Assembly (NCBI RefSeq): GCF_027011145.1
Contig: NZ_JALVAO010000068.1
Location: 1 to 43,796, forward strand
Reading direction: 5' to 3'
Origin: Thermococcus sp.
GTDB taxonomy: Archaea; Methanobacteriota_B; Thermococci; Thermococcales; Thermococcaceae
Length of the DNA: 43,796 nt
Below are positions 3,295 to 19,181 of this stretch, piece after piece. Position 1 is the stretch's first letter, and every line of letters starts with the position of its first letter. The notes beneath the pieces were generated by a model. It was given only the letters and a program-made list of their open reading frames with translations. It made no database searches and was not told the origin of the DNA. Both the position numbers and the translations under genes were made by a program.

Positions 3295-4312
3295 AAACGA
3301 GGCCGTATTCGATTAGTTTGTTCACTATTTTTCTTCCCTCCCTCGTGAGGTCGACCACTTTTCTTATCATGACAATCTTGAGGAGTCCCTTGTCTATCAT
3401 CCTGTCGTAGATTTCCTCGATTTCCCTCTCGCTGAGGCCAAGGAACTGGTGTATCTCGAGTGGGTTGAGGCCGGAGTAGAGCGCCATGAGGATTTGCTTC
3501 TCAGTCTCGTCGAGGCTCTCCAGTTCCTTCAGTTCCTTCTCCATTACCTCCTTGAACTCCGCTTGGAGCGTCGGGAACTCCTTTGAGACCTTCATGATAA
3601 ACTCGAAGTAACCGGGAATGTACTTGAGCAGGTAGCGCAGGATAAAGAGCCTTGTCTTCTTCTCGGGAATGTAAAGGTACGACGTTACAGTCTCGTTTAT
3701 GTAGAAGTGTTTTATCTTCCAGGCCTGGACCTTCTTGCCGTCCATGTCAACTTCCTCAACGTCCATATCCTCGACGTCCGAGAAGATGGGAATCGGCCTC
3801 ATGTCAGGGTCAAGGACAACTATGTTTCTCTCAGTTGTTCCTTTCTTTGCAGACTTAACAGAGACTATCCTAAGGGAACCGTCCTGCCATTTGGATTCCA
3901 TGTTTATTGCCCCGCCCTTAATCCTCGCCAGCTGTATTCTCACGGCCTTTCCGTTTATGAGAGTCTCGAAAATAGTATGAACAAACTCCTTGAACTTCTT
4001 CTCGTCATAGATGAGAAGGTTATCTCCAATTGTCAAAATCAGTGTAAGCTCGCCCCTTCCAGGGACGTAAAACTTCATACCAAAATGTTCTTTTTCAGGA
4101 TTGAGCTTATAATTGTCGGGAACGTTAACTGCTAAATCAGAAAGACTCGAAAATGGAAAGCTGTCTTCACCAACTACTTCACCCATACGGAGATACTTCA
4201 AAATAACCCTGTCATGTTGAATAATTCCAAGTGCATCACGCCAGTTAATTCTACCCGAGCCTTTCCACGAGGAGATAATTGCTACTTTAACTCTTGTTTC
4301 TGTCACCGACAT
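3287..4312 (-). CDS. cheF: CheF, archaeal taxis protein linking Che system to the archaellum
   Basis: A 341-residue protein of the archaea-specific CheF family (DUF439). In Halobacterium, CheF proteins bind CheY, CheD/CheC and the archaellum accessory proteins, and connect chemotaxis signalling to the motor. The N-terminal two thirds (about 1-240) form the CheF domain, with beta-rich segments such as INWRDALGIIQHDRVILKYL. The C-terminal 90 residues look like a winged helix (ETEKQILMALYSGLNPLEIHQFLGLSEREIEEIYDRM and so on). It is the last gene of the che operon, 18 bp after the membrane coiled-coil gene, and its end overlaps the convergent propeller gene by 8 bp. An SD-like GGAAGTGA precedes the ATG. 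Confidence 0.9.
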   Translation of the reverse strand: MSVTETRVKVAIISSWKGSGRINWRDALGIIQHDRVILKYLRMGEVVGEDSFPFSSLSDLAVNVPDNYKLNPEKEHFGMKFYVPGRGELTLILTIGDNLLIYDEKKFKEFVHTIFETLINGKAVRIQLARIKGGAINMESKWQDGSLRIVSVKSAKKGTTERNIVVLDPDMRPIPIFSDVEDMDVEEVDMDGKKVQAWKIKHFYINETVTSYLYIPEKKTRLFILRYLLKYIPGYFEFIMKVSKEFPTLQAEFKEVMEKELKELESLDETEKQILMALYSGLNPLEIHQFLGLSEREIEEIYDRMIDKGLLKIVMIRKVVDLTREGRKIVNKLIEYGLVSM

Positions 4313-4330
4313 AGGCCATCACTTCCGCCC

Positions 4331-5071
4331 TCATGTGAGGGCCTGACATTCTTCAAGCTGTCTTTCTAGCTTTTCTACCTTCGCCCGGAGCTTCTCGCAT
4401 TCTTGAGATAGCTTTACTTCGAGAGGTGTTACCGCAGGGTTTCCCCCACGAGAGGCTATTAGTTCATCTAAAATACTTATCGCACTATTGATACTGCTTG
4501 TCATTTTTATAAGTGCCTCTTCTGGTGGAAGCTTTATAGTGCTTTTTCCATCTTTGCTCTTTATTGTAATGGGCAGTTTAGTTCTCGCAACATATGCAAT
4601 TGCTTGATTGAGTTTTTCTTTGTCTTTCGGACTTGGGAAACGTGCGAGCCATAGTCGCTTAAACTCGTCTAGCTCACCTAAAACTTTCATCAAAAATGCA
4701 TTGTATTCATCTTCACTTATGTAGCCGAGGGTATAGCCCCTAGCCACATCAAGAAGCATTAGTAGTCTTTCCTTTTTGTGCCTTGCTTCATCAAGAACTT
4801 TCTGAACCTTTTCGTCAATAACTTGCCGGAGCTTTTTTATAAGTTCATCTTCGTTAATCCCCGAGACGCTCATTTGTTTCTTTTCTTCCTTTGGGAGTGT
4901 TTTTGGTTCCTCTTTCCTTTTTACTGGACTTTCACTCTTAAGCTCTCGTTCCAATAGAGTTGCATAAAGCTCGCCTATCTGGTTACTTACTGCGTTTGTG
5001 ATTAGGTATGCTGTAATTACCATGCCGAGCAACACTACAATCGAGATAATTGCAACCATTATCCAGTCCAT
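4331..5071 (-). CDS. membrane-anchored coiled-coil protein of the che operon, function unknown
   Basis: A 246-residue protein with one N-terminal membrane helix (about residues 4-26, MVAIISIVVLLGMVITAYLI) and no cleavable signal. A charged linker (KSESPVKRKEEPKTLPKEEKK) and helical segments follow, ending in a short C-terminal coiled coil (CEKLRAKVEKLERQLEEC) flanked by two cysteines. It lies between the Cache MCP and cheF with a strong GGAGGTGA site before ATG, so it is co-transcribed with chemotaxis genes. It resembles no chemotaxis protein I can name. A membrane scaffold placing CheF or receptors near the motor is only a guess. Confidence 0.75.
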   Translation of the reverse strand: MDWIMVAIISIVVLLGMVITAYLITNAVSNQIGELYATLLERELKSESPVKRKEEPKTLPKEEKKQMSVSGINEDELIKKLRQVIDEKVQKVLDEARHKKERLLMLLDVARGYTLGYISEDEYNAFLMKVLGELDEFKRLWLARFPSPKDKEKLNQAIAYVARTKLPITIKSKDGKSTIKLPPEEALIKMTSSINSAISILDELIASRGGNPAVTPLEVKLSQECEKLRAKVEKLERQLEECQALT

Positions 5072-5112
5072 GTTCTCACCTCCGAAAGGTTAATGGGTAA
5101 AAATGAAAAAGT

Positions 5113-7356
5113 CTAAAGTCTGAACTTACTGATGATGCTTCTGAGCTGTTGAACAATGTTCTTGAGGTCATTGGCGGCTCTTTCAAGCTCTTCAGTAGCT
5201 GCGGTTTGTTCTTCAACTGCTGAGCTGACCTCTTCAGCAGAAGCTGTTGTTTCTTCAGCACTTGCAGCTAAGTTTTCCAATGCCCTTAGAGCCTTTTCCA
5301 CTTCTTCTTGGGTGCGAATAATCTGTTCTTTAACTTCTCCCATCCTGCCACTGGCTTCTTGTAAGAGATCGGCAATATTCGTGAGGTATGTTATTGTTTC
5401 CCTGAGTGTTTCTGCGCTCTCGCCAACAACTTGAACACCTTTCTCCGTGCTCTCTACCGCGTCTTTGATTTCTGCTGTAATCTGGTCTATGATATTCTTA
5501 ATGTTGTCCGCGGCCTGTTTACTCTCCTCGGCCAGCTTTCTGATCTCTTGAGCGACGACTGCAAACCCTCTACCTGCCTCTCCAGCACGAGCGGCCTCGA
5601 TAGCCGCATTCAAGGCGAGCAAATTCGTCTGCTCGGCAATGTTGGTGATAACATCAGTAATCTCCTCAATGCTCCTGCTCATCTCTGCAACCTTTGTAAC
5701 TGCATGCTCAATCTTGCTCATGGTTTCCTGTATACTCTCTATCTGCTGGGCTGAGATTTCACTCTTCTCCCTGCCTTCAGTTGCTATGTTAACTACCTCG
5801 CTTACAGCTCCCTCGAACTCCTCCATTGCTCTAACGCTTTCTGCGCTTGTTTCAGCGACAAAGCGCATTCCTTCGGTTATCTCGTTAATGCTCTCCTGTT
5901 GCCTCTGTGCTTCGATACTAACTTGCTGAACAGCTTCGTTTACCTGAGTGATGGCCTCAGTAACGTCCGAGGCAATCTTTGCCAGAACGTTGGCCCTCTC
6001 CTCAAGGGTGTCGGTGACCTGAACAATTTCCCCAATGAGGCTCTTGAGTTTGTGAGTTGTGTCCCTAAGGTCCTCTAGAATTTCCTTGAGTTCCCCTTTA
6101 GCTTCCATACTTAATCCGTTGCTTAAGTCACCCTCTGCCAAACGCTCGAGTTTTGTGGCGATTGTGTTCAAGGTCCCAACGAGGTCCTTGCCAACTGCTT
6201 CGAAGGCCTTGATAAGTGCTCCAATTTCATCATTCTCAAGGTACCTAACCTCTTTGAGTTTTCTGTTCACTTCGCTAAGTCTACCCTCGGCCAGAGCTTG
6301 AGCAACTTCACTGAGCTTCTGGAGGGGCTTGAGTGAACTGGATACCATTTTATAGGACAGACCAGCCAAGACTGCTGACATTGCAAGGATTATTATGGTG
6401 AGGTATATAGCCGATTTCTTTGTAGCTTCGCGCGTGTCGTCAACTGCTTTTATTATCCCTGCACTTATCTCATCGACGGGAACCTTGGCAAACACATACC
6501 ATCCAGTCTCTGGTATCTTGACTCCTCCTGCTACCGCTCTAACTCCCCTAAAGGTGTAGATTGTCGTCGCTTCTTTAACCCCACTTTTAATTATGTCAGC
6601 TACAGGTTTTACTGTGGAAAGATTGAAAACGTTGAGTTTCATCTCTATGTTTGGGTCTGGGTGCATTATGACGAGTCCATCTGGAGCAACAACATATGCG
6701 TATCCTGTTTCCCCAATCTTGACTTTCTTAATCTCTTGGGAGAGTGTGTCAATATAAACGTCCAAACCAACGACACCGATGAGTTTACCGTTGAGATACA
6801 CGGGGACTGCGTACGTTATTACCCATTTTCCACTAGATGCATCTTTATATGGCTTGCTCCAGACAGGTCCCTTTTTTTCAACGGCAGCCTGATACCACGG
6901 TCTTTTTCTAGGATCGTATCCTTGTGGAAGTTGCTGATTGGGATATATGTACATGTTGCCGTTTACATCTCCAAAGTAGACTGCGCTTAGATTAGGTTCA
7001 GCTTTGGCTATTGCTTGAAAGTCCTCCAAGAGAATAGGCCTCAACTTGTCGGAATATCCGGGTTCTCCAAACTTTACTCCCTCGCTGTTTAGCTCTTGAA
7101 CTGACTGCACAACTAATGTCTGAGTAGTTTTCCCGAGAACTTCAACTTCTCTCAAGAATCCACTGAACTGGTTTGCCAATGCTTGGGCCTTTGCCAGAAC
7201 CATTGCTCGAGCTTCCTGATCTATTTCTGGTGCTAATTTTTCCTGTATTATGTCGCTGGTGTGGTTTCCTGTGTAGAGCATCATTGCACTAGCTACAACT
7301 GTTACCAGCAACAAGGCCACAACGACGGTGCCCACAATTTTTGTCTTAAAGTTCAT
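5113..7356 (-). CDS. mcp: methyl-accepting chemotaxis protein with extracellular dCache domain
   Basis: A 747-residue transmembrane chemoreceptor. Order: TM1 (about 7-29), extracellular double-Cache sensor (about 35-305, with [20 protein letters not shown] and [12 protein letters not shown] typical of dCache), TM2 (about 313-335), HAMP region (about 337-455), then the helical signalling hairpin. The hairpin tip carries the conserved [22 protein letters not shown], which binds CheW/CheA. Glu/Gln-rich heptads on either side are candidate methylation sites for CheR/CheB. dCache domains usually bind small ligands such as amino acids; the ligand here cannot be read from the sequence. The ATG at 7356 is preceded by GGGGGTGG. 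Confidence 0.95.
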
Positions 7357-7381
7357 GAAACCACCCCCGTGATTTGTTGAT

Positions 7382-7873
7382 TTAATAGATCTTTTCGATG
7401 ACTTTTCCGTTTGATACCCTTCTCATTCTCACTTTACCTGTTGAAAGATCGAGATAGATTGTTCTTCCACCTTTTCCACCGGTGTCTTCTGCAACCAACT
7501 TGATTCCATATTTTCTTAGCTCTCTCTTTGCCACCTCAACGTTTCTCCTGCCTATCATTAGTTTTTCATTCGAGATGTTTGTGAACATGTGAGCACCCCC
7601 AAAGAGCTTTGCTTCAGCTCTTCTCGGGTTTCCACCGAGCTTCTGAATGTCTCTGATGAGCAACTGAAGGCCGGTATCGACGTACTTGGCTGGGTTTCCC
7701 TTGTTACCGTAGTAGCTTGCCTCTGGCAACAGGGCGTGGAGTAAACCACCAACTTTGGTGAGCCTGTCGTAGAGGGTTATACCGACACAGCTACCCAATC
7801 CATAGGTGCTGATTATCCCCTCCTTCTTTCCCACGGCATAGTCGCCGATACCGACCTTTATCTCCATGGGCAA
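7382..7873 (-). CDS. cheD: CheD, chemoreceptor glutamine deamidase
   Basis: CheD of about 163 residues deamidates receptor glutamines and binds CheC. The catalytic triad is visible: Cys in [13 protein letters not shown], His in [11 protein letters not shown], and Thr in [16 protein letters not shown]. The first possible start is TTG at 7873, six bases after a GAGGGT site; an ATG at 7867 gives [10 protein letters not shown], but with poor SD spacing. I therefore favour TTG. It begins three bases after the stop of cheC2, which implies translational coupling and fits the known CheC-CheD partnership. Confidence 0.95.
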
Positions 7874-7876
7874 GGT

Positions 7877-8620
7877 TCAACCCTCTGTTTTCTCAATTTC
7901 TTGTTTGGTTTCGTTTGATCTCTCCGGAGAATTTTCAACTTTGCTCTCTCTAATTTCTTCTCCAGGCTCAAGAGTTTCTTCAGGAGGAATTTCGGGTTCT
8001 ATATCTTTTACTTGAGCCTCAAGCTTTCCAACAAGTTTGTCAAAGGCATCTTTGGTAGGCACAAGGTAAAACAGACTTTCTATTCCCGTGTCCTTTTGAT
8101 AGAACCTCGTCTTGAACATGATGACCTCGGTGACGTCCCTTAAGTCGGGCCTTGAGAGTTCCTTTTCGATATCGTAGAGACTTTCGGCGGGCTTGGGCGG
8201 ACTCAATGAGACGGGTTCCTCGATGAGCTTGGCCAGTATGTCTGTGTAAACCGAAATCAGGATGTTGCCTATCTCCATTATGGCTGAGCGCCCCATTTCG
8301 TCTATGCCTTCATCTCCAGTGTCCATTCCTAAGAGCATTGAAACTAGAGATTTGGCGCTTTCTTTTGGAAACTGAAGTATGGTCAACCCTCTTAATCCCT
8401 CAGTTATATCAAACATTACTACAAAGCTGTTTTGAATACCCTTACTGGCTATTTCATGGAGAAACTTTGCCCTTGGGATCACACTAACAGATGGTGGTTC
8501 CATCTCTATCTCGCCTATCATGTTCGATAATGCAGTTAGGGCGTGGCTCATCGCTATGTTAGATGCTTCCCTGAATATGTCCTGATACCATTCCGAAAAC
8601 CAACTCTTGTGCTTGCTCAT
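7877..8620 (-). CDS. cheC2: CheC family CheY-phosphatase, second copy, with acidic tail
   Basis: A CheC-type phosphatase of 247 residues that removes phosphate from CheY and docks CheD. Both active-site helices are intact: E-A-S-N followed about 21 residues later by PP, and E-I-G-N followed 22 residues later by P. The last 40 residues form a charged, Pro/Glu-rich tail (PEIPPEETLEPGEE and onward) that ordinary CheC lacks. The ATG overlaps the TGA of cheC1 (ATGA), so the two are coupled. Confidence 0.92.
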   Translation of the reverse strand: MSKHKSWFSEWYQDIFREASNIAMSHALTALSNMIGEIEMEPPSVSVIPRAKFLHEIASKGIQNSFVVMFDITEGLRGLTILQFPKESAKSLVSMLLGMDTGDEGIDEMGRSAIMEIGNILISVYTDILAKLIEEPVSLSPPKPAESLYDIEKELSRPDLRDVTEVIMFKTRFYQKDTGIESLFYLVPTKDAFDKLVGKLEAQVKDIEPEIPPEETLEPGEEIRESKVENSPERSNETKQEIEKTEG

Positions 8621-9249
8621 ACGAATCCCCCCAACAGCGTTTCAACAATCTTCTTCATCGATGAGGGTTGAGGAATAATTGTAAAATGCTCCTTAAACTG
8701 GAGGTTTTCGATTTTTATTGTCGTCTGGAGTAGCATTGTATAGTCACAATTTCGTCCTATATCCGCCAGTGCAAAGTCAAGAATTGCGGGAGTAAAGTCA
8801 ATTGCCATCTCCGGTGGTGTCTGGTTGATTTCTGTTCCTAAAAACTCGCTGAGAGCATTGGCGAAGGCCGATATTAGAATGTTGCCGGCCTCCATTACAG
8901 CTGACTGGACCATCTCGTCGAACTCCTTTGTCGTTCCCGGCTCCTGACCCATCATGAGGTCAAACATTTTAAGTGCATCATCAAAATCCATGAAGAAGAA
9001 CGCATGCCCTTCAAAACCTCCGCTCAAACCGATATAGACAGCTATCTTTACGTCCTCCCCAACTTTCTCAGGGACTGCTTTTATGGAGGTAATCTCTATC
9101 TCCGGGACGGTTATGTTTACAGTTAGTCCAGTCATTGCACTGAGCGTGTCAGCTGCTCTGGAGGCACCTATGTTGAAGGTCTCCACCAGGGCGCTCTTCG
9201 CTATCTCGTCGAGGTTCTTGATGTACTCCTCGTAGTTCTCAGATTCCAC
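8617..9249 (-). CDS. cheC1: CheC family CheY-phosphatase, first copy
   Basis: A CheC-type phosphatase of about 210 residues with both catalytic helices (E-T-F-N then P about 22 residues on; E-A-G-N then PP about 22 residues on). It is close to the usual CheC length. A GTG at 9258 lies inside the GGAGGTGG site, so the GTG at 9249 (protein [12 protein letters not shown]) is the better start. Its 5' end overlaps cheA slightly and its 3' end overlaps cheC2 by 4 bp. Two adjacent CheC copies probably divide work between free phosphatase and CheD-binding roles. Confidence 0.92.
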   Translation of the reverse strand: MESENYEEYIKNLDEIAKSALVETFNIGASRAADTLSAMTGLTVNITVPEIEITSIKAVPEKVGEDVKIAVYIGLSGGFEGHAFFFMDFDDALKMFDLMMGQEPGTTKEFDEMVQSAVMEAGNILISAFANALSEFLGTEINQTPPEMAIDFTPAILDFALADIGRNCDYTMLLQTTIKIENLQFKEHFTIIPQPSSMKKIVETLLGGFV

Positions 9250-11587
9250 CGCGTCCACCTCCGAGGAGACCGTTAATCTCTATAATCAAAACGACGCTAC
9301 CGTCGCCGAGAATCGTTGCCCCTGCGAACCCGCTGATGTGGGACAACATCTTGCCGAGGCTCTTGATGACTATGTCCTTCTTGTGGAGGAGCTCGTCAAC
9401 GCCTATCGCCACCTTCTGAGCGCCCAAATCAACGACCAGCGCCGGGAACTCCTCAAGCTCGGGCATTGGCAGGCCAAAGAGCTCGTGGAGCATTATGACC
9501 GGTATAATCTCGCCACGGAGAACTATTACCTCCTTTCCGCCGATGCTCTTGAGGTTCTCGCGCTTTATCTCGATGCTCTCAAGGATGTTGTTTATTGGAA
9601 CCGCGTAGACCTCGTCCTGCACCTTGATGAGGAGCGCCTGAATTATCGCCATGCTAACCGGCAACTTGAGGACGAATGTAGTTCCCTTTCCAACCTCGCT
9701 GTAGACCGCTATGCTCCCGTTGAGGCTCTTGACGACCTCCTTGACGACGTCCATTCCAACGCCCCTTCCAGAAACGTCCGTGACCTGGTCCTTCGTGCTG
9801 AACCCCGGCAGGAAGATTAGGTTTATAGCCTCCTCGTCGCTCATCTCCGCGGCCTGCTCCGGTGTGATGAGGCCTTTCTCTATTGCCTTCTTCTTGATTT
9901 TCTCCGGGTCTATACCCCTACCATCGTCCCTGACTATTATCTCCACGTGGCTCCTCTCGCGCTTCGCTATGAGTTCAAGTCTTCCTGTTCTCGGCTTGCC
10001 GAGCTTCTCGCGCTCCTCTGGAGGTTCAATTCCGTGGTCTATAGCGTTCCTGAGAAGGTGAACCAGAACGTCGCCGAGCTTGTCGAGTATCGTCCTGTCA
10101 ACCTCGATATCTGCGCCTTCAATGATGAACTCGACTTCCTTGCCCATCTTCCTAGCGAGCTCGCGGACCATCCTCGGGAACTTGTTGAAGACCTCTGCTA
10201 CGGGGGTAAGGCGCATCTCCATTATCTCGTCCTGCAACTCCGTGAGAAGCCTTGAGAGCGTCGATAGGGTTTCAAGGAGTTCCCTGTCGCCGAGCCTCTC
10301 GGCTATTTGCTCCAATCTTCCTTTGGTAATAACCAGCTCGCCAACGAGGTTCATCAGCCTGTCGAGGTGGCTGACATCGACCTTGATTATCTTGGAAATT
10401 TTGACCTTTGGGGTCTTCACGAGTGGTTTGGTGGCCTTTTTCTCCGGTTTCTTGGCTTTTTCTCTCTTCTCTTTCTTCTCGACCTTTGGCTGGGCCTCCG
10501 CCTGGGAAGTTGCTCCCTCGATTTCTCTAACGTCGGCGTTCTCAACGTCCGGGTGCTTGGTTATTATCTTCACAATGTCTTCCTTCTTGAGGTTGGTTCT
10601 AAGGATAACTCTGAAGTAATATCCTTCCAAAAGCTCACCGTTTTGAATATCGATTTCATTGGGTTCTGTCTTCTCGATGAATCCAACCTTCTGGAGGTCT
10701 TGGAGAACGAGGTAGGAGCGGACACCCTTTAGAGGAGCGTCTTTTTGAAGATATACTATTACCTCGTATCTCTTCTCACCACTCTCGGATTGAGTACCCT
10801 CACCGCTTGCGAGAGTCTCTCCACCAAGGGTCTGAATTTCTACCTTCTCAACCTCGGGATGCCTGGAAACGACAGTCTTAATCCTCTCGGGGTCTTCATC
10901 GGTCTCTATAACAAACTCGAGCACGTCAACGTCAGCTTTCCCATCCTCGATAATTTTTCTCTCCGGGTTTGTCTCGATTACGTTCCCGAGCTCATCGAGG
11001 TCAGAAAGGATGAGAAAGGCCCTCACTCCCCTCAGCGGTGCGTCCTTCTGGAAGTAAACCTTGACCAAATAGTGGTTGCCAGTTCCGGCTTCCGTTTCCT
11101 GCGGACCTTCCTCTTCCTTCCCCTCCTCGGGCTTTTCTTCCTCTTTCCTGGATTTTTCGTCCTTACCTCCGCCGGCCCCGGCCTGGTCAAAGAACTTCTG
11201 GGCCTTTTCGAAGAGAGAATCAACGTCGAAGTCGCCTTCCTCGCCCGTTTCCTCGATGTTGTCAACCATGGCCTCGATTATGTCAAGGAACTCAAGGAGG
11301 ACGTCTATCAGCTCGGGCGTTGGCTCTATCTTACCGCTCCTCACAAGGTCAAAGAGGTTCTCCATCTTGTGCGCCACTTCGCTCAGCTTCATGAAACCCA
11401 TCGTCGCGGCAGTCCCTTTGAGCGTGTGGGCATCTCTGAAAATCTGGTCTATCATGGCCTTCTTCTCTTCCTCACTGCCACCTTCCTTGACTATCTTTTC
11501 GAGCGTGAGTATGGCGTTGCTCAGGCTGTCTATCCTGTCTCTCGCGTCGGCAAGGAACTCATCAAGGTACTGTGAAAGGTCTTCCAC
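9239..11587 (-). CDS. cheA: CheA histidine kinase with two P2-like domains
   Basis: The central chemotaxis kinase, about 782 residues. Order: Hpt domain with the phosphorylated His in [13 protein letters not shown] (about residue 54); acidic linker (about 140-170); a P2-like CheY-binding domain (about 170-255) and a second one (about 272-355), each starting with a Y-x-QKDAPL-K/R-GVR signature; Lys-rich linker; dimerisation helices; an HATPase domain with [10 protein letters not shown] (N box), DDGRGID (G1) and GRGVGMDVV (G2); and a C-terminal CheW-like domain. All kinase boxes are intact. GTG codons occur at 11596, 11593 and 11587; I chose the last because GGTGGTGG precedes it. It overlaps cheB. 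Confidence 0.95.
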
Positions 11588-12674
11588 CGCCACCACCCCG
11601 CTTAATCTTGTTCACTGCCATCACGATGGTATCTGCGATTTTATCAAGCGGGACGATGTAGTCCACCATGCCCGTTTCGGCGGCGGCCTTTGGCATCCCG
11701 TAGATTATCGAGGTCTCCTTGTCCTGCGCTATGGTGATTCCGCCCTTCTTCTTGATGGCCACTATTCCCTGAGCGCCGTCGCGTCCCATACCCGTCATTA
11801 CAACCCCTACGGTTCGCCTTCCGAAAACTTCTGCCGCGGTAATCATCATGGGGTCTGCCGCTGGTCTAACTCCGTGTATCTTCGGCTTCTTGTTCAGCGT
11901 TATGACGGGCTTTCCGCGCCTTAGCTCGACCTCCATGTGGTAGTCTCCCGGAGCGACGTAGCCCCAGTCCTCTTCAATCGGCTCGCCGTCCTCTGCCTCT
12001 TTCACGTTGATTTTGCTCACGCTGTCGAGCCTTTTGGCGAAGGACCTTGTGAAGCCCGGTGGCATGTGCTGGACGAGGAGTATTGCCGCGCCGAGCCTCT
12101 CCGGGAACTTCGGGAACACCTTGAGGAGTGACTGGGGTCCGCCCGTTGAAGCCGCCATCGCGACGGCGATTCTCGCTGGAACACCTTTCCTCTTGACCTT
12201 ACTTTTCTGGGCCCTCAGCAGTCTCGTTCTCTTTAGCTCAAGGAACCTCCTCGGAACCTTCGCCGCTTCCTTGATTTTCGCTATTATCTCGTCCTTCATC
12301 TCCTTCATGCTGAGGGATATTGAAGAGCTCGGCTTGGGGATGAAGTCTATGGCACCGTACTCGAGGGCCTTTATCGTTGCTTCAGCTCCTTCCTGCGTTA
12401 GGGCGCTCACCATTATTACCGGCGTTGGGTTCTGCTTCATTATCACCCTCAGAGCGTCGAGGCCGTTCATTCGGGGCATCTCGATGTCGAGGGTAATAAC
12501 GTCGGGCTTGTGGAGCTTAACCATGTTTATGGCCTCGATTCCATCGCGGGCCTCACAACAGACTTCAAGCTCGGGGTCGGAGTTGATTATATCCCTGAGT
12601 ATCTTGCGCATGAACGCTGAATCGTCAACGACGAGTACTCTAATCTTTTTTCTGGGTGAGCTCAGGGGCATCAT
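11562..12674 (-). CDS. cheB: CheB, receptor methylesterase/deamidase
   Basis: About 370 residues: an N-terminal receiver domain ([12 protein letters not shown]; phospho-Asp in [15 protein letters not shown]), a linker, and a C-terminal methylesterase domain with catalytic Ser in [11 protein letters not shown], His in VQHMPPGF and Asp in [11 protein letters not shown]. It removes methyl groups from MCP glutamates for adaptation. Starts at GTG 12677, ATG 12674 and ATG 12671 are all possible just after GGTGAG; one of the ATGs is likely. It lies 8 bp after cheY and overlaps cheA by 26 bp. Confidence 0.95.
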
Positions 12675-12682
12675 CACTCACC

Positions 12683-13045
12683 CTAGCTGGACAGTACGCG
12701 GTTGATTTCTTCGAGGACCTTCGGGGCCTGGAAGGGCTTGACGATGTAGCCGGAAGCTCCGGCCTTGAGGGCCTCCATGACCTTGCTCTCCTGTCCAACG
12801 GCGGTAATCATAATTATCTTGGCGTTGGGGTCTATCTTCTTGATTTCGCGGACCGCTGTTATTCCGTCCATCTCCGGCATAACTATGTCCATAGTCACAA
12901 CGTCGGGCTTGAGTTCCTGATACTTCTGGACAGCTTCCTTTCCGTTGCTGGCCTCCCCAACAACTTGGTGGCCTCCCTGTGTTAGTATCTTCTTCAGGAG
13001 CATGCGCATAAAGGCGGCATCATCTACGACCAAAATTCTGGCCAT
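12683..13045 (-). CDS. cheY: CheY, chemotaxis response regulator
   Basis: A single-domain receiver of 120 residues. Acidic pocket D8/D9, phospho-acceptor D53 (in VVTMDIVMPEMDG), T81 (MITAVGQ) and K103 (VKPFQ) are all present. Phospho-CheY is the soluble messenger to the archaellum motor, in archaea via CheF. It overlaps the end of cheR by 26 bp and is preceded by GGAGGTGAAAA. Confidence 0.97.
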   Translation of the reverse strand: MARILVVDDAAFMRMLLKKILTQGGHQVVGEASNGKEAVQKYQELKPDVVTMDIVMPEMDGITAVREIKKIDPNAKIIMITAVGQESKVMEALKAGASGYIVKPFQAPKVLEEINRVLSS

Positions 13046-13883
13046 ACTTTTTCACCTCCAGATTCTTGCGATAAATCCTAGCGACGAGGTCGTACAATTT
13101 GAACAGCTTTGCTGCGTTTCCGAGTATCGTCTCGGTTTTACCCAGAATCAGGAACCCGTGGTCCTCGAGCGAATTGTACAGTTTAGCAAATATTTCCTCC
13201 TGGGCTTCCCTCTTGATGTAAATCAGCACGTTGCGGATGAATATAACGTCGAAACCCGTCGGGTACCTCGGGCTGAAGAGGTTGAACTGCTGGAATTTCA
13301 CGAGCCGTTTTATCTTCGGCGAAACGCGGTAGCGCTCCTCGCTCACTCTTGTGAAGTACTTGGGAATCATATGCCTCGGCACCTGCTTCTCGACGACGTC
13401 AACCGGATACTCCCCGCGCATGGCTACTGCAAGTGCCTCCCTGTCTATGTCTGTCGCGAGTATCTGAACCCTGAAGCCGCCGAGGTTCTCTCCCAGGGCC
13501 TCATAGAGTGTCATCGCTATTGAATACGGCTCCTGACCAGTAGAACATGCAGCGCTCCATATCTTGAGCAAAGAACTGTGTTGTTCTTTTTTTATTTTCA
13601 CGAGTTCAGGAATGACTTTCTTTTCGAAGGTTTTCCAAACGATTGGATCTCTGAAAAACTCCGTGACGTTTATGGCGACTGTGAGAAGTAACTCATCAAG
13701 TTCTTTCTTGTTCATCTTTATTAGTCGGTAGTATTCCATAAAATTTGTAATGCCGAGCTTTCTCATTCTTGCACGGATTCTTCTCATGAGATACGAATCT
13801 TTGTAAGCGTCACTACTAACCTTGAGATGTCTGAACAATTCTTCCTTAATTTTCAGGTAGCCCGGATCCTTGTACTCCATCAT
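13020..13883 (-). CDS. cheR: CheR, MCP methyltransferase
   Basis: A SAM-dependent methyltransferase of about 287 residues that methylates MCP glutamates. It has an N-terminal helical CheR_N domain, then the SAM motif IWSAACSTGQEPYSIAM, the downstream acidic ATDIDREAL, and VIFIRNVLIYI. An ATG at 13907 has no SD. The ATG at 13883 (MMEYKDPGYLKIK) has AAGGTG nine bases upstream and is preferred, though 13907 cannot be excluded. It is the first gene of the che operon. Confidence 0.93.
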   Translation of the reverse strand: MMEYKDPGYLKIKEELFRHLKVSSDAYKDSYLMRRIRARMRKLGITNFMEYYRLIKMNKKELDELLLTVAINVTEFFRDPIVWKTFEKKVIPELVKIKKEQHSSLLKIWSAACSTGQEPYSIAMTLYEALGENLGGFRVQILATDIDREALAVAMRGEYPVDVVEKQVPRHMIPKYFTRVSEERYRVSPKIKRLVKFQQFNLFSPRYPTGFDVIFIRNVLIYIKREAQEEIFAKLYNSLEDHGFLILGKTETILGNAAKLFKLYDLVARIYRKNLEVKKYGQNFGRR

Positions 13884-13971
13884 TTTCTCACACACCTTGG
13901 TGGACATTCGGAAATTTTGAAGGATTATTGGGTAGTCTGCGAAGTTCCCTACAATTTTATGGGCTGTTTCT

Positions 13972-13982
13972 CATAAAAAGCC
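13972..13982 (-). promoter_or_regulatory. probable che operon TATA box
   Basis: On the minus strand AAAGGCTTTTTATG resembles AAGGGCTTTATATT at the fla promoter. A second candidate, ATAAAATTG at 13960-13952, lies nearer cheR. The first implies transcription starting near 13950. Confidence 0.5.
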
Positions 13983-13986
13983 TTTA

Positions 13987-14016
13987 GTGTAGATGGTTGT
14001 GTAGGTGCATACGCAG
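13987..14016 (-). promoter_or_regulatory. EarA-type operator upstream of the che operon
   Basis: Read on the minus strand, perfect CTACAC boxes start at 14004 and 13992, exactly 12 bp apart, and a degenerate box (CTGCGT) starts 12 bp earlier at 14016. The spacer ATGCAC and both box positions match the fla operator at 18434-18463 at 25 of 30 positions. The element lies just upstream of the che TATA and is probably an activator site. Confidence 0.7.
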
Positions 14017-14064
14017 GTTGTTACGAATCCACTTGTTATTATTGTAACTCGTATCTTTGGTTAT

Positions 14065-14090
14065 TACATACATACGAAAGTCTTTTATCT
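14065..14090 (+). promoter_or_regulatory. promoter of the mcp2-cheW unit, with TACATA motifs
   Basis: TACATACATAC overlaps an ACGAAAG BRE-like stretch and a TTTTATC TATA at 14083-14089, about 40 bp before the mcp2 ATG. The CATACGAAA-TATA arrangement recurs at the earA promoter (17004-17022). Confidence 0.55.
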
Positions 14091-14127
14091 CTCAAATAAC
14101 AATAGATATCAGCCAGGGGGTGTGTCC

Positions 14128-15336
14128 ATGGGCAGGTCAGTGACTTTCGCTTCAGTACTATCGGTCCCAGTGGTTACTTTGGCAGGCTCTATGGTTTCTC
14201 TACCGGTTGGTGCTATAGCTGGCATTGGCACTGCTCTGGCAGTTGGCTTTTATCTCTCGTCCAAGAGGGATAGTGAGGACCTGCTCGGCGTTCTGGAGAG
14301 ACTTATAGAAGGCGAGCATGTTTCTCTCAAGGACTTAGACAGTGAGACCGCTTCTCGTCTTCTCAGGATAGCCGAGAGGGCTAAGTCAAAGAAGGAGGTA
14401 AGGATTGAAAGAACAAGCGTTCCGGGAGAAGTTCACGAAGCCCTCGAGGAACTCAGAAACGCTGGAGAAAAGGTTAACTCTCTCCTCCAGAGCGCTGATT
14501 TTGATGTTTCCCTTGACTCCAACAGTTTGCTTACGCTCATTCAGGAGGAGCGCTCTCGAGTTGCCGAGCTCGGCGATTACATACAGACACTGACCGCAGG
14601 CATAGAAGAGATGAACACACAGGCCCAGGCATTAACGGACTACGCCCTCGAAACTGCCAATATGGCCGAGAAGGGCAAACAGATTTCCGACAACGTTGCC
14701 CTCAACGTGGCGAGTATCAACGAAGTAAACCAGGACATGGAAAAGGCCCTTTCCCTTCTAGTGGAACACTCTCGCAGGATTGGTGAGATAGTCGAGGTCA
14801 TAGGCAACATCGCCGAGCAGACGAATTTGCTTGCACTCAACGCTGCCATTGAAGCCGCTAGGAGCGGGGAGCACGGAAGGGGCTTTGCCGTGGTCGCTGA
14901 GAACATCCGTGAGCTGGCAGATCAGTCCAAAAAGTCAACCGACCAGATTGCAGAACTCATAAGGAACATGCAGGAGAGTATTGACAAGGTTGTCGGCTCG
15001 ATAAAGAAGGAGTTCACGGTTACGGAGGAAATCAAGGACGCCGTTCAGGAACTCATTGCGGCATTTGATGACATAGCGAGGAGAGCAAACGAGACAGCCA
15101 ACATGATAAAGGAGCTCTCCGACAGCATAGAAGGCCAGGCTCAGTCCGTTCAGATGCTCATGGACACCCTTGACAGTGTTTACAAGGTTCAGGAGGATCT
15201 CTCGACGGAAATTGATGGCTTCACCTCCTTTGTAAGCGACGTGCAAATAAGGTTAGAAGAAATTGGAAATGCTCTAAAAGAGCTTGCTCAATCAATCTCA
15301 CGTTCACGTGAACTCCTTGAAAGGGTTAGGGGGTGA
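14128..15336 (+). CDS. mcp2: methyl-accepting chemotaxis protein without extracellular sensor domain
   Basis: A 402-residue transducer. Two adjoining hydrophobic segments at residues 6-43 probably form a membrane hairpin with almost no outside loop. A short linker region follows, then the MCP signalling domain with tip [22 protein letters not shown]. No Cache, HAMP or other sensor is evident, so it may sense through the membrane, from inside, or via a partner. The reading frame is open back to 14005, but the strong GGGGGTG before the ATG at 14128 fixes the start. The gene overlaps nothing and is followed 4 bp later by cheW. Confidence 0.93.
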
Positions 15337-15340
15337 TACC

Positions 15341-15781
15341 TTGGCGGAGATTCAGGTTGTGGCTTTCATGGTTGGCAATGAGGAGTTTTGCCTTGACATC
15401 TCCAAGGTTAGGGAAATTAAGGAGATGATGCCCATAACGAGAGTTCCAAACGCTCCTGACTTCGTTGAGGGCGTCATAAATCTGCGCGGTCAGATTACGA
15501 CGGTTGTAAACCTTAAGAAGCTCCTTGGCTATTATGAACCAGATGAAGACTTATCAAAGAAGAAGATTATCATAGCGGAAGTCAAAGATGAGATTGTTGG
15601 CATAATTGTTGATGCCGTTTCTGACGTCATAACCCTCACGGAGGACCAGATAGAACAGCCACCAAAGACCCTCGCCAGCAGGGTGGACATACGCTACATA
15701 AAGGGCATCGCCAAGATAAACGACGGCGAGAGGCTTCTCATAATGATTGACCTTGACAAGCTCCTTGGCGACGAGTTCTAA
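15341..15781 (+). CDS. cheW: CheW, chemotaxis coupling protein
   Basis: A CheW of 146 residues that couples MCPs to CheA. The family signature is clear: FMVGNEEFCLDISKVREI, then VPNAPDFVEGVINLRGQITTV and VDAVSDVITLTEDQI. It starts with TTG at 15341, because GGGGGTGAT lies five bases before it; upstream in-frame ATG codons lie inside mcp2. It is coupled to mcp2, whose stop is 4 bp upstream, and converges on the coiled-coil gene at 15778 with a 4-bp overlap. Confidence 0.95.
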   Translation: MAEIQVVAFMVGNEEFCLDISKVREIKEMMPITRVPNAPDFVEGVINLRGQITTVVNLKKLLGYYEPDEDLSKKKIIIAEVKDEIVGIIVDAVSDVITLTEDQIEQPPKTLASRVDIRYIKGIAKINDGERLLIMIDLDKLLGDEF

Positions 15782-16824
15782 AGAAGGTTAAGATCCTTCA
15801 GAATTTCCTCTATGTCATCTTTTTTCTCTTCCGGCTCCTTCTCAATCGCTCCTAATTTAAGCATGAGCTTCTGAACCTGCTCCTCCAGTCTTCTGAGTTC
15901 CTCAAACTGGTAGCGTAGCTTCTCGTAGAACTCCTTTTCCACAGGCGTCACCGGAACGGGCTCGCCAAGCATCTCGGCAATCCTGTCTATCTCGCCTGCC
16001 AGCTCGTAGGTTATCCTGTGTATCTCGATGAAGCTCTTCTCCGGGGACAGCTCCCTGTCGCCACGTTTCATTGGAAGTTCCAGGCGTTTTGTCTTGACTA
16101 TAACCTCGTTGAACTTGGAGTAGACGTTCTCGTCGGGAACGGAGACAATGGCCAGCTTCCTCAGGTTTTTGAGGAGTTCAACGAGGTTGCCCTTCAGCTC
16201 GTTGAATTCCCTTTGTCCCTTTCCAGTCAGGACGTAAACCTTGGCTATGTCCCTGAGCGAGAGAAGGGCACGTTTTGCTTCGAGAAGGCCCTCACGGAGT
16301 TTCTCCGGCTGGAGCGTTATCGCCGCCTTTATAACCTCAAGGAATTCCTCTACCTCCTCGTTCTTCCGCCTTTCGATAACCTCCTCGAGGTGCTCTATCT
16401 CCTCCTCAAGTTCCCTTATTATTTCCCCCTTGAGCTCCTCCTTTATCAGCTCCCTGCTCTCCTCGAGTTCTCTTTCGAGCTTCTCAACCCTGCCTTCAAG
16501 CCTCTCAAGGCCGTTCTTAACGCTCCCAATCTCGAACTCGAACTTTGTCTCGAACTTCCTGAAGTCTCTCAGAGACTTTTCAAGCGAAGTCAGCCTTTCC
16601 CTTATTTCCTTTAACTCTGTTATTTGAGTTAGACTTCTCTCTGAGCCCCTAAGTTCCGAGATTTTCTTTTCGATTACAGACCGAAAGTCTTTGAAGTTCT
16701 CCTCAAGTTCGATGAGATTATCTTTGAGCTCGAAGTACTTCGCTAGAACCTTACTAGTGACGTCCCTGACATAAAGAACGAGTGCCACTGTCACTACTGC
16801 CGTCACTGCAATGGCTTCCCACAT
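15778..16824 (-). CDS. membrane-anchored long coiled-coil protein
   Basis: A protein of about 348 residues with one N-terminal membrane helix (MWEAIAVTAVVTVALVLYV) followed by roughly 150 residues of E/K/L heptads, a partly globular middle (about 165-285) and a final coiled segment. No enzyme motif is visible. The ATG at 16824 is favoured over the GTG at 16833 because GGTGGT precedes it by five bases. It sits between cheW and earA but has its own AT-rich promoter. It shares its build (TM plus coiled coil) with the che-operon gene at 4331, without clear sequence similarity. Confidence 0.75.
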   Translation of the reverse strand: MWEAIAVTAVVTVALVLYVRDVTSKVLAKYFELKDNLIELEENFKDFRSVIEKKISELRGSERSLTQITELKEIRERLTSLEKSLRDFRKFETKFEFEIGSVKNGLERLEGRVEKLERELEESRELIKEELKGEIIRELEEEIEHLEEVIERRKNEEVEEFLEVIKAAITLQPEKLREGLLEAKRALLSLRDIAKVYVLTGKGQREFNELKGNLVELLKNLRKLAIVSVPDENVYSKFNEVIVKTKRLELPMKRGDRELSPEKSFIEIHRITYELAGEIDRIAEMLGEPVPVTPVEKEFYEKLRYQFEELRRLEEQVQKLMLKLGAIEKEPEEKKDDIEEILKDLNLL

Positions 16825-16868
16825 GATTACCACCCAATGTCAACAGGTGTAATATGATTTTTTCTAAT

Positions 16869-16881
16869 GCTTTAAATATTT
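16869..16881 (-). promoter_or_regulatory. TATA box of the coiled-coil gene at 15778
   Basis: On the minus strand AAATATTTAAAGC is the best TATA, about 50 bp before the ATG at 16824. An 8-bp inverted repeat lies just upstream. Confidence 0.45.
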
Positions 16882-16891
16882 TGTTGGAAGT

Positions 16892-16910
16892 TTTTGGATA
16901 AAATCCAAAA
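16892..16910. promoter_or_regulatory. perfect inverted repeat, candidate operator
   Basis: TTTTGGAT, three bases AAA, then ATCCAAAA: a perfect 8-bp inverted repeat in the earA/coiled-coil intergenic region, 10-20 bp upstream of the minus-strand TATA. The form is that of a dimeric winged-helix or Lrp-type site. Confidence 0.45.
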
Positions 16911-16941
16911 TTATAAACAAATCAACTAATTCTCCAATAGT

Positions 16942-16973
16942 ATTGAATTGTTACATAAAATTCTCAATTCAAT
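16942..16973. promoter_or_regulatory. second inverted repeat in the same intergenic region
   Basis: ATTGAATTG (16942-16950) and CAATTCAAT (16965-16973) are perfect 9-bp arms separated by 14 bp. Both arms are A/T-rich, so chance is a real possibility. Confidence 0.35.
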
Positions 16974-17003
16974 GTTGTTTATGTTGTATTAAAGACATTG
17001 TCC

Positions 17004-17022
17004 ATACGAAAATGTTATATAT
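17004..17022 (+). promoter_or_regulatory. earA promoter
   Basis: CATACGAAAATG (BRE-like) is followed by TTATATAT at 17015-17022. The expected transcription start is near 17042-17048, giving a leader of about 75 nt before the earA ATG. Confidence 0.6.
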
Positions 17023-17052
17023 CTTCCAATCATTATTACTACCACAATGCAC

Positions 17053-17070
17053 CTGCATGGCCAGCTACAT
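17053..17070 (+). promoter_or_regulatory. EarA-type boxes in the earA leader
   Basis: CTGCAT at 17053 and CTACAT at 17065 are 12 bp apart and preceded by the same ATGCAC spacer as in the fla and che operators. Here the boxes lie downstream of the TATA, a position that favours repression. Confidence 0.55.
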
Positions 17071-17119
17071 AAAGTCCAGAAGGGTACAATCAGCATCAAA
17101 AACCCGGGGTGGTGGAAAA

Positions 17120-17449
17120 ATGAACTCGGTGGTTATAGATCCACAGGTGCTACGCTCTTTGCACCGCAGTGAGCTCAGGAAGAAAATACTAATGTACCTG
17201 AACGAGATATACCCGTCAGCAACGTACCTCTCTGAGATTGCCAGAGTCGTGGGTTCTGATCCTTCCAATGTTAGAGGTGCTCTCGTTGGTCTTGGGAATC
17301 GTTACAACGGTGAGAGTTCCCTTGTCTATTTGGGTCTCGTTGAGGAGATAGCTAGCAACGGCTTCAAGTACTATCGCCTCACAGAATATGGCAAAAAGGT
17401 TGTAGATTATCTGAAGGAATATTACCGCTATTACAGACGATTCCTGTGA
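17120..17449 (+). CDS. earA: EarA-like winged-helix regulator of the archaellum operon
   Basis: A 109-residue winged-helix protein. The region from about residue 17 to 60 (SELRKKILMYLNEIYPS, SDPSNVRGALVGL) is the helix-turn-helix, and the wing follows near FKYYRLTEYGKKVVDYL. Size, sequence style and position next to fla match the euryarchaeal archaellum activator EarA, known from Methanococcus maripaludis to switch on fla by binding upstream of its BRE. An in-frame ATG at 17056 would add about 21 residues, but it lies within the operator-like boxes. The GGGGTGGTGG before ATG 17120 decides the start. It is 9 bp upstream of the methyltransferase gene and probably co-transcribed with it. Confidence 0.85.
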   Translation: MNSVVIDPQVLRSLHRSELRKKILMYLNEIYPSATYLSEIARVVGSDPSNVRGALVGLGNRYNGESSLVYLGLVEEIASNGFKYYRLTEYGKKVVDYLKEYYRYYRRFL

Positions 17450-17458
17450 GGTGGGGAG

Positions 17459-18415
17459 ATGTTGTCCTCCCCTGAACTAGTTGATACTAACATAGAGCAC
17501 ATGGTAAAGATTGCAATCCTTCATATTATTTCTCTTGGGACAAAACATGGGATATTTTCTCTTTTAGCTAAGGGGCCAACGCTTCAAGAGCTTATAGAGG
17601 GAGTTAATCTTCCAAACCGGGCTTTGCTAGTTAAGTTTGTTTCAACACTTAAGGATCTCCATATTGTTGAAGTCAAAAATGGACGACTTCATCTTAACGG
17701 TTTTTCATATATTCTGGAAGTTCCGCCTGTTAAATATAACCTTTTACTTCCAGATTGGGTCTCTATCCAAGAGGAAATATATCGAATGGTTGATTATGCT
17801 TTTATAACTCCGACTCACCCTCAGATTCTAATGGATTTTGATAAAGATGCCGATTTTTGGGATATGCGGATGAGCACATCGTTTTCTCAGGCTTATCGGA
17901 AGGTCATGGTTGATGTAGCTGGAATTAAACCAGGGTTCTCTGTTTTGGATATAGGGTGTGGGTCTGTTTCGCCAGAATTTTTTGGAAAAATTGTTGGCTA
18001 TGATGGGCTGTATATGGGTGTGGATTATTCTCCTGCTCTTCTTGAGATAGCCCGTTTAAGAGTTGAAGAAAAAAATCTTCCTGTGTCCCTTAAGGAAATT
18101 GATGCAAGATTAATACGGCCAGTTAATGAGTATGATGCTGTTTTAATGAGCTTTGTCTTAGAATACATGCCTGATCGGGAGAAAGTTCTTAAGAATGCCT
18201 TTGAAACTCTCAAACCAGGAGGAAAATTGATTATAGTTGAGCCATTTCGAGATTCCTTTGAGAACATTTCTGCTCTTGAATTTTTTGAGAGTCTAAATAA
18301 AGATTTTACAGGTTTTCCGTCAATTTCAGAAATAATAAGCATTTTTGAGAACATGGATATAGAATTTAAAACAAAACAATTCGGAAAAAGTATTCTGCTT
18401 CTTGAAAAGCTCTGA
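17459..18415 (+). CDS. SAM-dependent methyltransferase linked to archaellum genes
   Basis: A 318-residue class I methyltransferase. An N-terminal winged-helix dimerisation region (about 1-95, as in plant/bacterial O-methyltransferases) is followed by the SAM domain: motif I VLDIGCGSVSPEF, acidic MGVDYSPALLEIA, and [13 protein letters not shown]. It sits between earA and flaB1; Pyrococcus furiosus is reported to have a similarly placed flagella-associated methyltransferase. The substrate is unknown; archaellin glycans are one possibility. Its codons are visibly more A/T-rich (many TTT, AAT, GAT, AAA) than those of the neighbouring che and fla genes, suggesting a different origin. Confidence 0.85.
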   Translation: MLSSPELVDTNIEHMVKIAILHIISLGTKHGIFSLLAKGPTLQELIEGVNLPNRALLVKFVSTLKDLHIVEVKNGRLHLNGFSYILEVPPVKYNLLLPDWVSIQEEIYRMVDYAFITPTHPQILMDFDKDADFWDMRMSTSFSQAYRKVMVDVAGIKPGFSVLDIGCGSVSPEFFGKIVGYDGLYMGVDYSPALLEIARLRVEEKNLPVSLKEIDARLIRPVNEYDAVLMSFVLEYMPDREKVLKNAFETLKPGGKLIIVEPFRDSFENISALEFFESLNKDFTGFPSISEIISIFENMDIEFKTKQFGKSILLLEKL

Positions 18416-18425
18416 TTATTTTTTG
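18416..18425 (+). terminator. T-run terminator after the earA-methyltransferase unit
   Basis: TTATTTTTTGG directly after the methyltransferase stop is a U-tract like archaeal intrinsic terminators. It separates this unit from the fla promoter. Confidence 0.5.
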
Positions 18426-18433
18426 GCTAGTAT

Positions 18434-18463
18434 CTACACATGCACCTACATAACTATCTACAC
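18434..18463 (+). promoter_or_regulatory. EarA-type operator of the fla operon: three boxes at 12-bp spacing
   Basis: CTACAC at 18434, CTACAT at 18446 and CTACAC at 18458 repeat at exactly 12 bp with spacers ATGCAC and AACTAT. The last box ends 20 bp before the TATA box. The core TACAYA agrees with the TACATA-like sites I recall for M. maripaludis EarA. Confidence 0.75.
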
Positions 18464-18473
18464 TACCAACAAC

Positions 18474-18492
18474 AAAAAAGGGCTTTATATTT
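18474..18492 (+). promoter_or_regulatory. fla operon BRE and TATA box
   Basis: An A-rich BRE (AAAAAAGGG) is followed by TTTATATT at 18484-18491. Transcription would start near 18512, giving a leader of about 28 nt to the flaB1 ATG at 18540. Confidence 0.7.
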
Positions 18493-18539: not shown

Positions 18540-19181
18540 ATGAAGGCCAGGACCAGAAGAGGTGCCGTTGGTATCGGTACCCTGATTGTGTTCATAGCCA
18601 TGGTTTTAGTAGCAGCAGTGGCCGCGGCAGTGCTCATTAACACGAGCGGATACCTCCAGCAGAAGGCTTCCAGCACCGGAAGGGAGAGCACGGAGCAGGT
18701 TGCTAGTGGCATACAGGTCATGCAGGTTACAGGATACTACGACAACAACAGTGGAGGAATAACCAAGCTCGCTATCTACGTTACTCCGAACGCTGGAAGC
18801 AATGGCATCGACCTGAACAACACCAAGATAATCCTTAGCAACGGCAATGTCCAGGGAATCCTCAAGTACGGAGGGCCGAACCTCTACAACAACAGCGTTA
18901 CTGGAAACATCTTCACGGCCGGTTCTGCTTGGCCTACAACTGGAACTGAGTTCGGTATCATCGTTGTCCAGGACTACGACCACAGCGTTAAGAACACCTC
19001 CCCGACCATGAACCAGGGTGACATCGTTATTCTCACCGTCAACGCCCAGGCTCTCTTCGGAAGTGCAATACCCGTCAGGACTCACATTACTGGTAAGGTT
19101 ATTCCTGAGTTCGGTGCTCCTGGAGTCATTGACTTCACCACACCCAGCACCTACACCACTGAGATAGTGAACCTGCAGTGA
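18540..19181 (+). CDS. flaB1: archaellin FlaB1
   Basis: An archaellum filament subunit of 213 residues. A short class III signal peptide (MKARTRRG, cleaved before AVGIGT by the archaeal prepilin peptidase) precedes the hydrophobic helix [20 protein letters not shown], which packs the filament core. A beta-rich surface domain follows, with N-x-S/T sequons for glycosylation, ending in the conserved [21 protein letters not shown]. It is the first gene after the operator-controlled fla promoter, so it is probably a major subunit. Bases 18567-18737 are identical to the same part of flaB2. Confidence 0.97.
18567..18737 (+). repeat. 171-bp segment identical to 19254-19424
   Basis: The coding sequence for the flaB1 N-terminal helix is identical, base for base, to that of flaB2 over 171 bp, then diverges abruptly. 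A second identical block of 88 bp links 19072-19159 to 20089-20176 (3' end). Confidence 0.95.

Follow-up and report, generated by a model that had tools for sequence, protein, structure and literature searches.

Do the swimming motor and the chemotaxis machinery of Thermococcus answer to one regulator? The question is raised by a window of 43,796 nucleotides (the whole stretch of DNA that was analysed), in which the chemotaxis (che) and archaellum (fla, or arl) promoters carry similar arrays of short boxes on either side of a gene described as earA-like. In Methanococcus maripaludis, fla transcription requires EarA, which acts at 6-bp sites lying just ahead of the BRE; strengthening the BRE makes EarA dispensable, suggesting recruitment of TFB (PMC5512572). 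In Pyrococcus furiosus EarA is essential for archaellation, and boxes of the form A(C/G)(C/G)TACA(T/C) lie upstream of arlB0 in Thermococcales (PMC10665913). According to Stockl et al. 2023 (PMC10665913), the inputs of EarA and its further targets, notably in species with chemotaxis, are still to be found.

The arrays and their gene neighbourhood

Both arrays contain three boxes at exactly 12-bp spacing, and all six CTACAY-type boxes were reproduced at the positions given in the preliminary description. Those of fla, on the forward strand, are CTACAC (18434), CTACAT (18446) and CTACAC (18458); those of che, on the reverse strand, are a degenerate CTGCGT (14016-14011) and two copies of CTACAC (14004-13999 and 13992-13987). 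The full arrays read CTACAC-ATGCAC-CTACAT-AACTAT-CTACAC at fla and CTGCGT-ATGCAC-CTACAC-AACCAT-CTACAC at che. As had been claimed, these 30-mers are identical at 25 of 30 positions and have the spacer ATGCAC in common, whereas the second-best non-overlapping 30-mer in the window reaches 18/30, and a TATA-like box lies downstream of each array (TTTATATT at fla, TTTTTATG at che; Table 1). The BRE preceding the fla TATA is A-rich and weak. In an alignment from other genomes, the first box and spacer form a 16-bp palindrome, ACCTACATATGTAGGT, in part of the fla promoters, and therefore the common “spacer” ATGCAC may represent a second half-site in degenerate form.

Table 1. Coordinates of the features discussed, in window positions unless a locus handle is given.
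Feature	Coordinates	Strand	Basis or remarks
che operon	3287..13907	-	downstream of the che operator; Pfam and coordinates
che TATA-like box	13972..13979	-	TTTTTATG; begins 7 nt past box 3
che operator	13987..14016	-	degenerate CTGCGT and two CTACAC boxes, 12-bp spacing
Divergent MCP promoter	14064..14089	+	TTACAT/ATACAT boxes against BRE and TATA, CTTTTATC
Divergent MCP gene	14128..15336	+	Pfam; followed by cheW, 15341-15781
earA-leader box-like element	17041..17070	+	ATGCAC-CTGCAT-N6-CTACAT = ATGCACCTGCATGGCCAGCTACAT
earA (winged-helix regulator, 109 aa)	17120..17449	+	PF07381
fla (arl) operator	18434..18463	+	three CTACAY boxes, 12-bp spacing; matches the fla model of other genomes
fla TATA-like box	18484..18491	+	TTTATATT; begins 20 nt past box 3
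First archaellin gene arlB0, fla/arl operon	18540..19181	+	Pfam
ODP-family gene and MCP-domain gene	L200:484-2013 (G000:C48)		reverse-oriented boxes, strongly conserved

The gene between the two arrays does encode an EarA: its product matches the Pfam profile PF07381 with 115 bits against a cut-off of 22 (E=1.4e-33), and it is the one member of that family above the cut-off in the genome. A search of PDB sequences with EarA returned no solved homologue. The che operon comprises cheR, cheY, cheB, cheA, two cheC/cheX-type genes, cheD, a dCache MCP, an unknown ORF and cheF, which overlap or stand at most a few tens of bases apart. Elsewhere in the neighbourhood, a 351-aa protein (15778-16833), convergent to cheW and divergent from earA, has no Pfam match and weak coiled-coil-type NCBIfam matches. 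Between earA and fla lies a gene for a SAM-dependent methyltransferase (17459-18415), AT-rich by eye; the content of this stretch varies in other genomes.

The two remaining promoters of the neighbourhood look different, in that the BREs of earA and of the divergent MCP gene appear strong (CGAAAA and CGAAAG, respectively), and because of this neither promoter would be expected to need EarA. The divergent-MCP promoter is a weak, single-box candidate. The element in the earA leader lies downstream of the earA TATA, near the expected transcription start, and is possibly an autorepression site. A box pair with at most one mismatch is present there in 6 of 71 genomes, all close relatives; with so few earA leaders carrying one, we rejected autoregulation as a general property of earA.

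Reach and conservation of the boxes

Box pairs with two mismatches number 16 in the window, against at most 12 in dinucleotide shuffles of it. As a second line of evidence, a sequence-only covariance model was trained on the fla operators of other Thermococcaceae (32 distinct sequences), leaving out che and the genome of the window itself, and was scanned across that genome. The fla array ranks first (32.1 bits, E=1.9e-7) and the che array second (27.3 bits, E=6.6e-6); the third match (E=0.003) is ~500-fold weaker than che. Because the shuffles fall below the observed count and a model that saw fla operators alone places che second, the similarity of the two arrays is not due to chance. Two other sites in this genome were set aside, one (C66:3443) falling within a coding frame and one (C62:5616) lying between threonine-dehydrogenase-like and MinD/ParA-type genes. 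Matches to the fla model (E ~0.001) also occur ~1.1-1.4 kb from earA at G030:C1:807814, G033:C1:823561 and G067:C27:32901.

Further exact box pairs in this genome lead to other receptors. One (C2) precedes an MCP gene, and another (C48) precedes an ODP-family gene that is followed by an MCP-domain gene. Five genes with an MCP signal domain score above the cut-off in this genome, and boxes precede the transcription unit of four of them: the che-operon MCP, the orphan MCP, the ODP-linked MCP and, weakly, the divergent MCP.

Conservation was surveyed across 94 Thermococcaceae genomes, among which CheR was found in 33 and EarA in 72; EarA is present in 32 of the 33 cheR genomes, the exception being G076. 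The preliminary description had looked to related genomes for the boxes, and in a search for two CTACAY boxes at 12-bp spacing the che operator proves to be kept: if up to two mismatches are allowed, 30/33 genomes have it before cheR, and 29/33 if no more than one is allowed; the corresponding frequencies in shuffled cheR upstream regions are 5% and 0.0% (rounding to 0.000). No such operator was found at the cheR of G002, G063 and G093, which are the most divergent of the 33 cheR loci and belong to genomes that hold EarA. Boxes of the published EarA motif occur in 61 of 64 fla upstream regions. With up to two mismatches, they also precede 27 of 30 ODP orthologs and all 25 orphan MCP genes examined, and they occur in one of 30 control regions upstream of ODP. 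Linkage is not a prerequisite for this conservation: the che operator is kept in genomes where che lies far from earA/fla, such as G024 (537 kb vs 31 kb), G028 (148 vs 699 kb), G005 (533 vs 1927 kb) and G030 (1159 kb vs 806 kb), and likewise in the genus labelled g3.

The ODP protein matches PF19583 with 231 bits (cut-off 27.2), and the next ORF encodes a 250-aa protein holding the MCP signalling domain (PF00015) alone; the pair is likely an oxygen-taxis operon. Close ODP orthologs were found mainly in che-bearing genomes. Nearly all of their promoters have the geometry RTGTAG-N6-RTGTAG-8 nt-CTTAAATA, that is, with the boxes in reverse orientation, as are those of the Thermococcus orphan MCPs. 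At two of the three ODP loci that lack boxes (L215 and L221), ODP directly follows an apparent MCP reading frame, by inspection.

Similar boxes were also observed at genes of other kinds. A DUF835 gene is preceded by a three-box array whose distance to TATA, ~8 bp, is che-like, in EarA-less genomes as well (L157-L162, L164, L171, L177, L186). Box pairs or palindromes lie between a DUF5658 gene and a divergent gene for a ~144-aa protein with no Pfam match, with a helicase gene adjoining (L163, L166-L170, L172, L174, L176, L178-L183, L185, L271). In three close genomes, CTACAC-N6-CTACAC stands 7 bp before the TATA of an AAA ATPase gene with a Vps4_C match (L195:2533-2554 in G000:C34, L192 and L193).

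A common register and a proposed role for EarA

The gap between the last box and the TATA octamer measures 6–9 bp at che, mostly 7–8, with one outlier (L033) whose TATA call is uncertain; 8 bp at 25 of 27 ODP promoters and 7 bp at the others; and, at fla, 20 bp in 45 genomes and 32 bp in 13. It is 7 bp at the AAA gene, ~20 bp at DUF5658 and, by inspection, 8 bp at DUF835. These values follow 8+12n bp, within about one base. Pyrococcus arrays shifted by one window at arlB0 were described previously (Stockl et al. 2023, PMC10665913). Among Pyrococcus-like orphan-MCP promoters, four of eight have the 8-bp spacing; the arrays of the Thermococcus orphan MCPs sit further from TATA, by tens of bases, and are not simply accommodated by the rule. 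The preliminary description had equated the difference between fla and che in distance to TATA with about one helical turn. This part of it has to be revised, because the distances fall on 8+12n across species: the difference is 12–13 bp, one repeat unit of the array rather than 10.5 bp.

These observations support the reading of fla and che as one motility regulon, and we consider it probable that the boxes before fla/arl, che, ODP-MCP and the orphan MCP are operators through which EarA activates it. EarA suggests itself as the che regulator because it is the sole PF07381 protein of the genome, acts through the same type of box at arl/fla and co-occurs with cheR in nearly every case, and it is most likely the protein that binds and activates the che, ODP and MCP arrays. 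The regulon is probably wider than first proposed, taking in ODP-MCP and the orphan MCP and perhaps also the DUF835, DUF5658 and AAA genes. Some features speak against EarA as the common activator: the boxes of ODP and of the Thermococcus orphan MCPs are reversed, the cheR loci of G002, G063 and G093 lack an operator in genomes that hold EarA, and some EarA-less genomes, discussed below, keep boxes.

In mechanistic terms, EarA subunits would sit side by side on boxes with a 12-bp repeat (their cores CTACAY, in some cases forming the palindrome CTACAT-ATGTAG), and the array would keep a fixed register relative to the promoter, its last box ~8, 20 or 32 bp before TATA. EarA on the array would help TFB to load on a weak BRE and would so turn on motor, chemotaxis core and several receptors together; the che and ODP arrays, in the register closest to the BRE, would be activated in the way of Methanococcus fla. 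In its most general form, the proposal makes EarA a global activator of motility and chemotaxis in archaea, possibly also of aerotaxis (arl, che, ODP-MCP and orphan MCPs, perhaps with the DUF835, DUF5658 and AAA genes), working as an array on a 12-bp lattice that is phase-locked to TATA at 8+12n bp, with boxes in either orientation; in our judgement this has about an even chance of being correct. No 12-bp-lattice promoter grammar for archaeal activators was found described in the literature searched.

Alternative regulators and known systems

It is worth considering that a different regulator with the same DNA specificity might read the boxes at che, ODP, MCP, DUF835 and DUF5658, leaving fla alone to EarA. 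We think this unlikely, although several genomes give it some substance. G076 has cheR with a good operator, yet EarA, ArlB and ArlJ were all undetected. G020 and G042, also without EarA, have similar boxes at the non-motility genes DUF835 and DUF5658; the DUF5658 sites track the presence of the DUF5658 gene, and these two genomes, its sole EarA-less carriers, keep them. A fla-like motif upstream of the AAA ATPase gene points in the same direction. However, the second rank of che under a fla-only model and the want of another PF07381 protein above the cut-off argue against a separate reader, and nine further genomes without canonical EarA (G017, G027, G032, G039, G041, G057, G060, G073 and G087) have no fla-model site at E<=0.1. 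In addition, arlJ is decayed to a fragment in G020 (C1:471152-471655), although it is intact in G042 (C1:786077-787795), so that loss of the archaellum is possibly in progress in these genomes and their boxes would be relics, which would fit a recent loss of the locus. A last genome, G050, has boxed ODP and orphan MCP genes, but EarA, CheR, ArlB and ArlJ were undetected; since its ODP and orphan-MCP proteins are 95% identical to those of the genome of the window, these absences likely reflect an assembly gap.

A second alternative keeps EarA as the reader of the che and ODP arrays and reverses its effect: it would bind there as a repressor, those arrays abutting the BRE where the fla array leaves a gap. 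Indeed, ~8 nt separate box 3 from TATA at che and ODP, compared with 20–32 nt at fla, and a box lying against the BRE could also keep TFB off. Nonetheless, the activating EarA sites of Methanococcus lie immediately upstream of the BRE as well (PMC5512572), by inspection the BREs of che and ODP seem weak, not strong, and the promoter classes have the 8+12n register in common; opposite control of motor and steering would also be unusual. Repression at che and ODP therefore seems to us quite improbable. Finally, coincidence, or a local duplication of the fla promoter beside che, may be dismissed: both operators do lie within 4.5 kb in this genome, but che boxes persist in species with che and fla hundreds of kb apart, which rules out local duplication, and neither shuffles nor control regions reproduce the conservation.

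It is informative to set activation by EarA beside what is already known. The EarA boxes at fla are already published, and the fla array of the window is a member of the arlB0-upstream sites of Stockl et al. 2023 (PMC10665913), which likewise follow A(C/G)(C/G)TACA(T/C), occur in one to three copies and keep a set distance to BRE/TATA. Those boxes were reported upstream of arlB0 only and in the fla register alone, whereas here they also precede che, ODP-MCP and the orphan MCP, at further lattice positions and in both orientations. The M. maripaludis fla promoter (Ding et al., PMC5512572) is similar in placing several 6-bp sites just ahead of a weak BRE, four in number as opposed to two to three here; EarA is proposed to recruit TFB there, and the arrangement was described for the fla operon alone. 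TFB-RF1 (PF1088) of P. furiosus also activates by bringing TFB to a weak BRE (PMC5512572, PMC10665913), although it is another protein with another target promoter, and the analogy is one of mechanism only. The ODP-MCP of Treponema denticola (PMC7666581) likewise couples a gene for an ODP-family diiron protein to an MCP that lacks sensing and membrane modules; in contrast, the pair described here is archaeal, its promoter carries EarA-type boxes, and its oxygen sensing is predicted. In the open-access literature, to which the search was confined, work on EarA concerned arl/fla only, with no operators at che, ODP or MCP genes.

EarA is known from one target operon. The present analysis names che, ODP-MCP and the orphan MCP as candidate targets, with exact sites in many genomes, and the 8+12n spacing rule stands as a prediction of these data. 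If the proposal is true, the motor and the chemotaxis system of the Thermococcales would be co-regulated by one small activator, an arrangement comparable to the flagellar-chemotaxis regulon of bacteria but built on TFB/TBP promoters.
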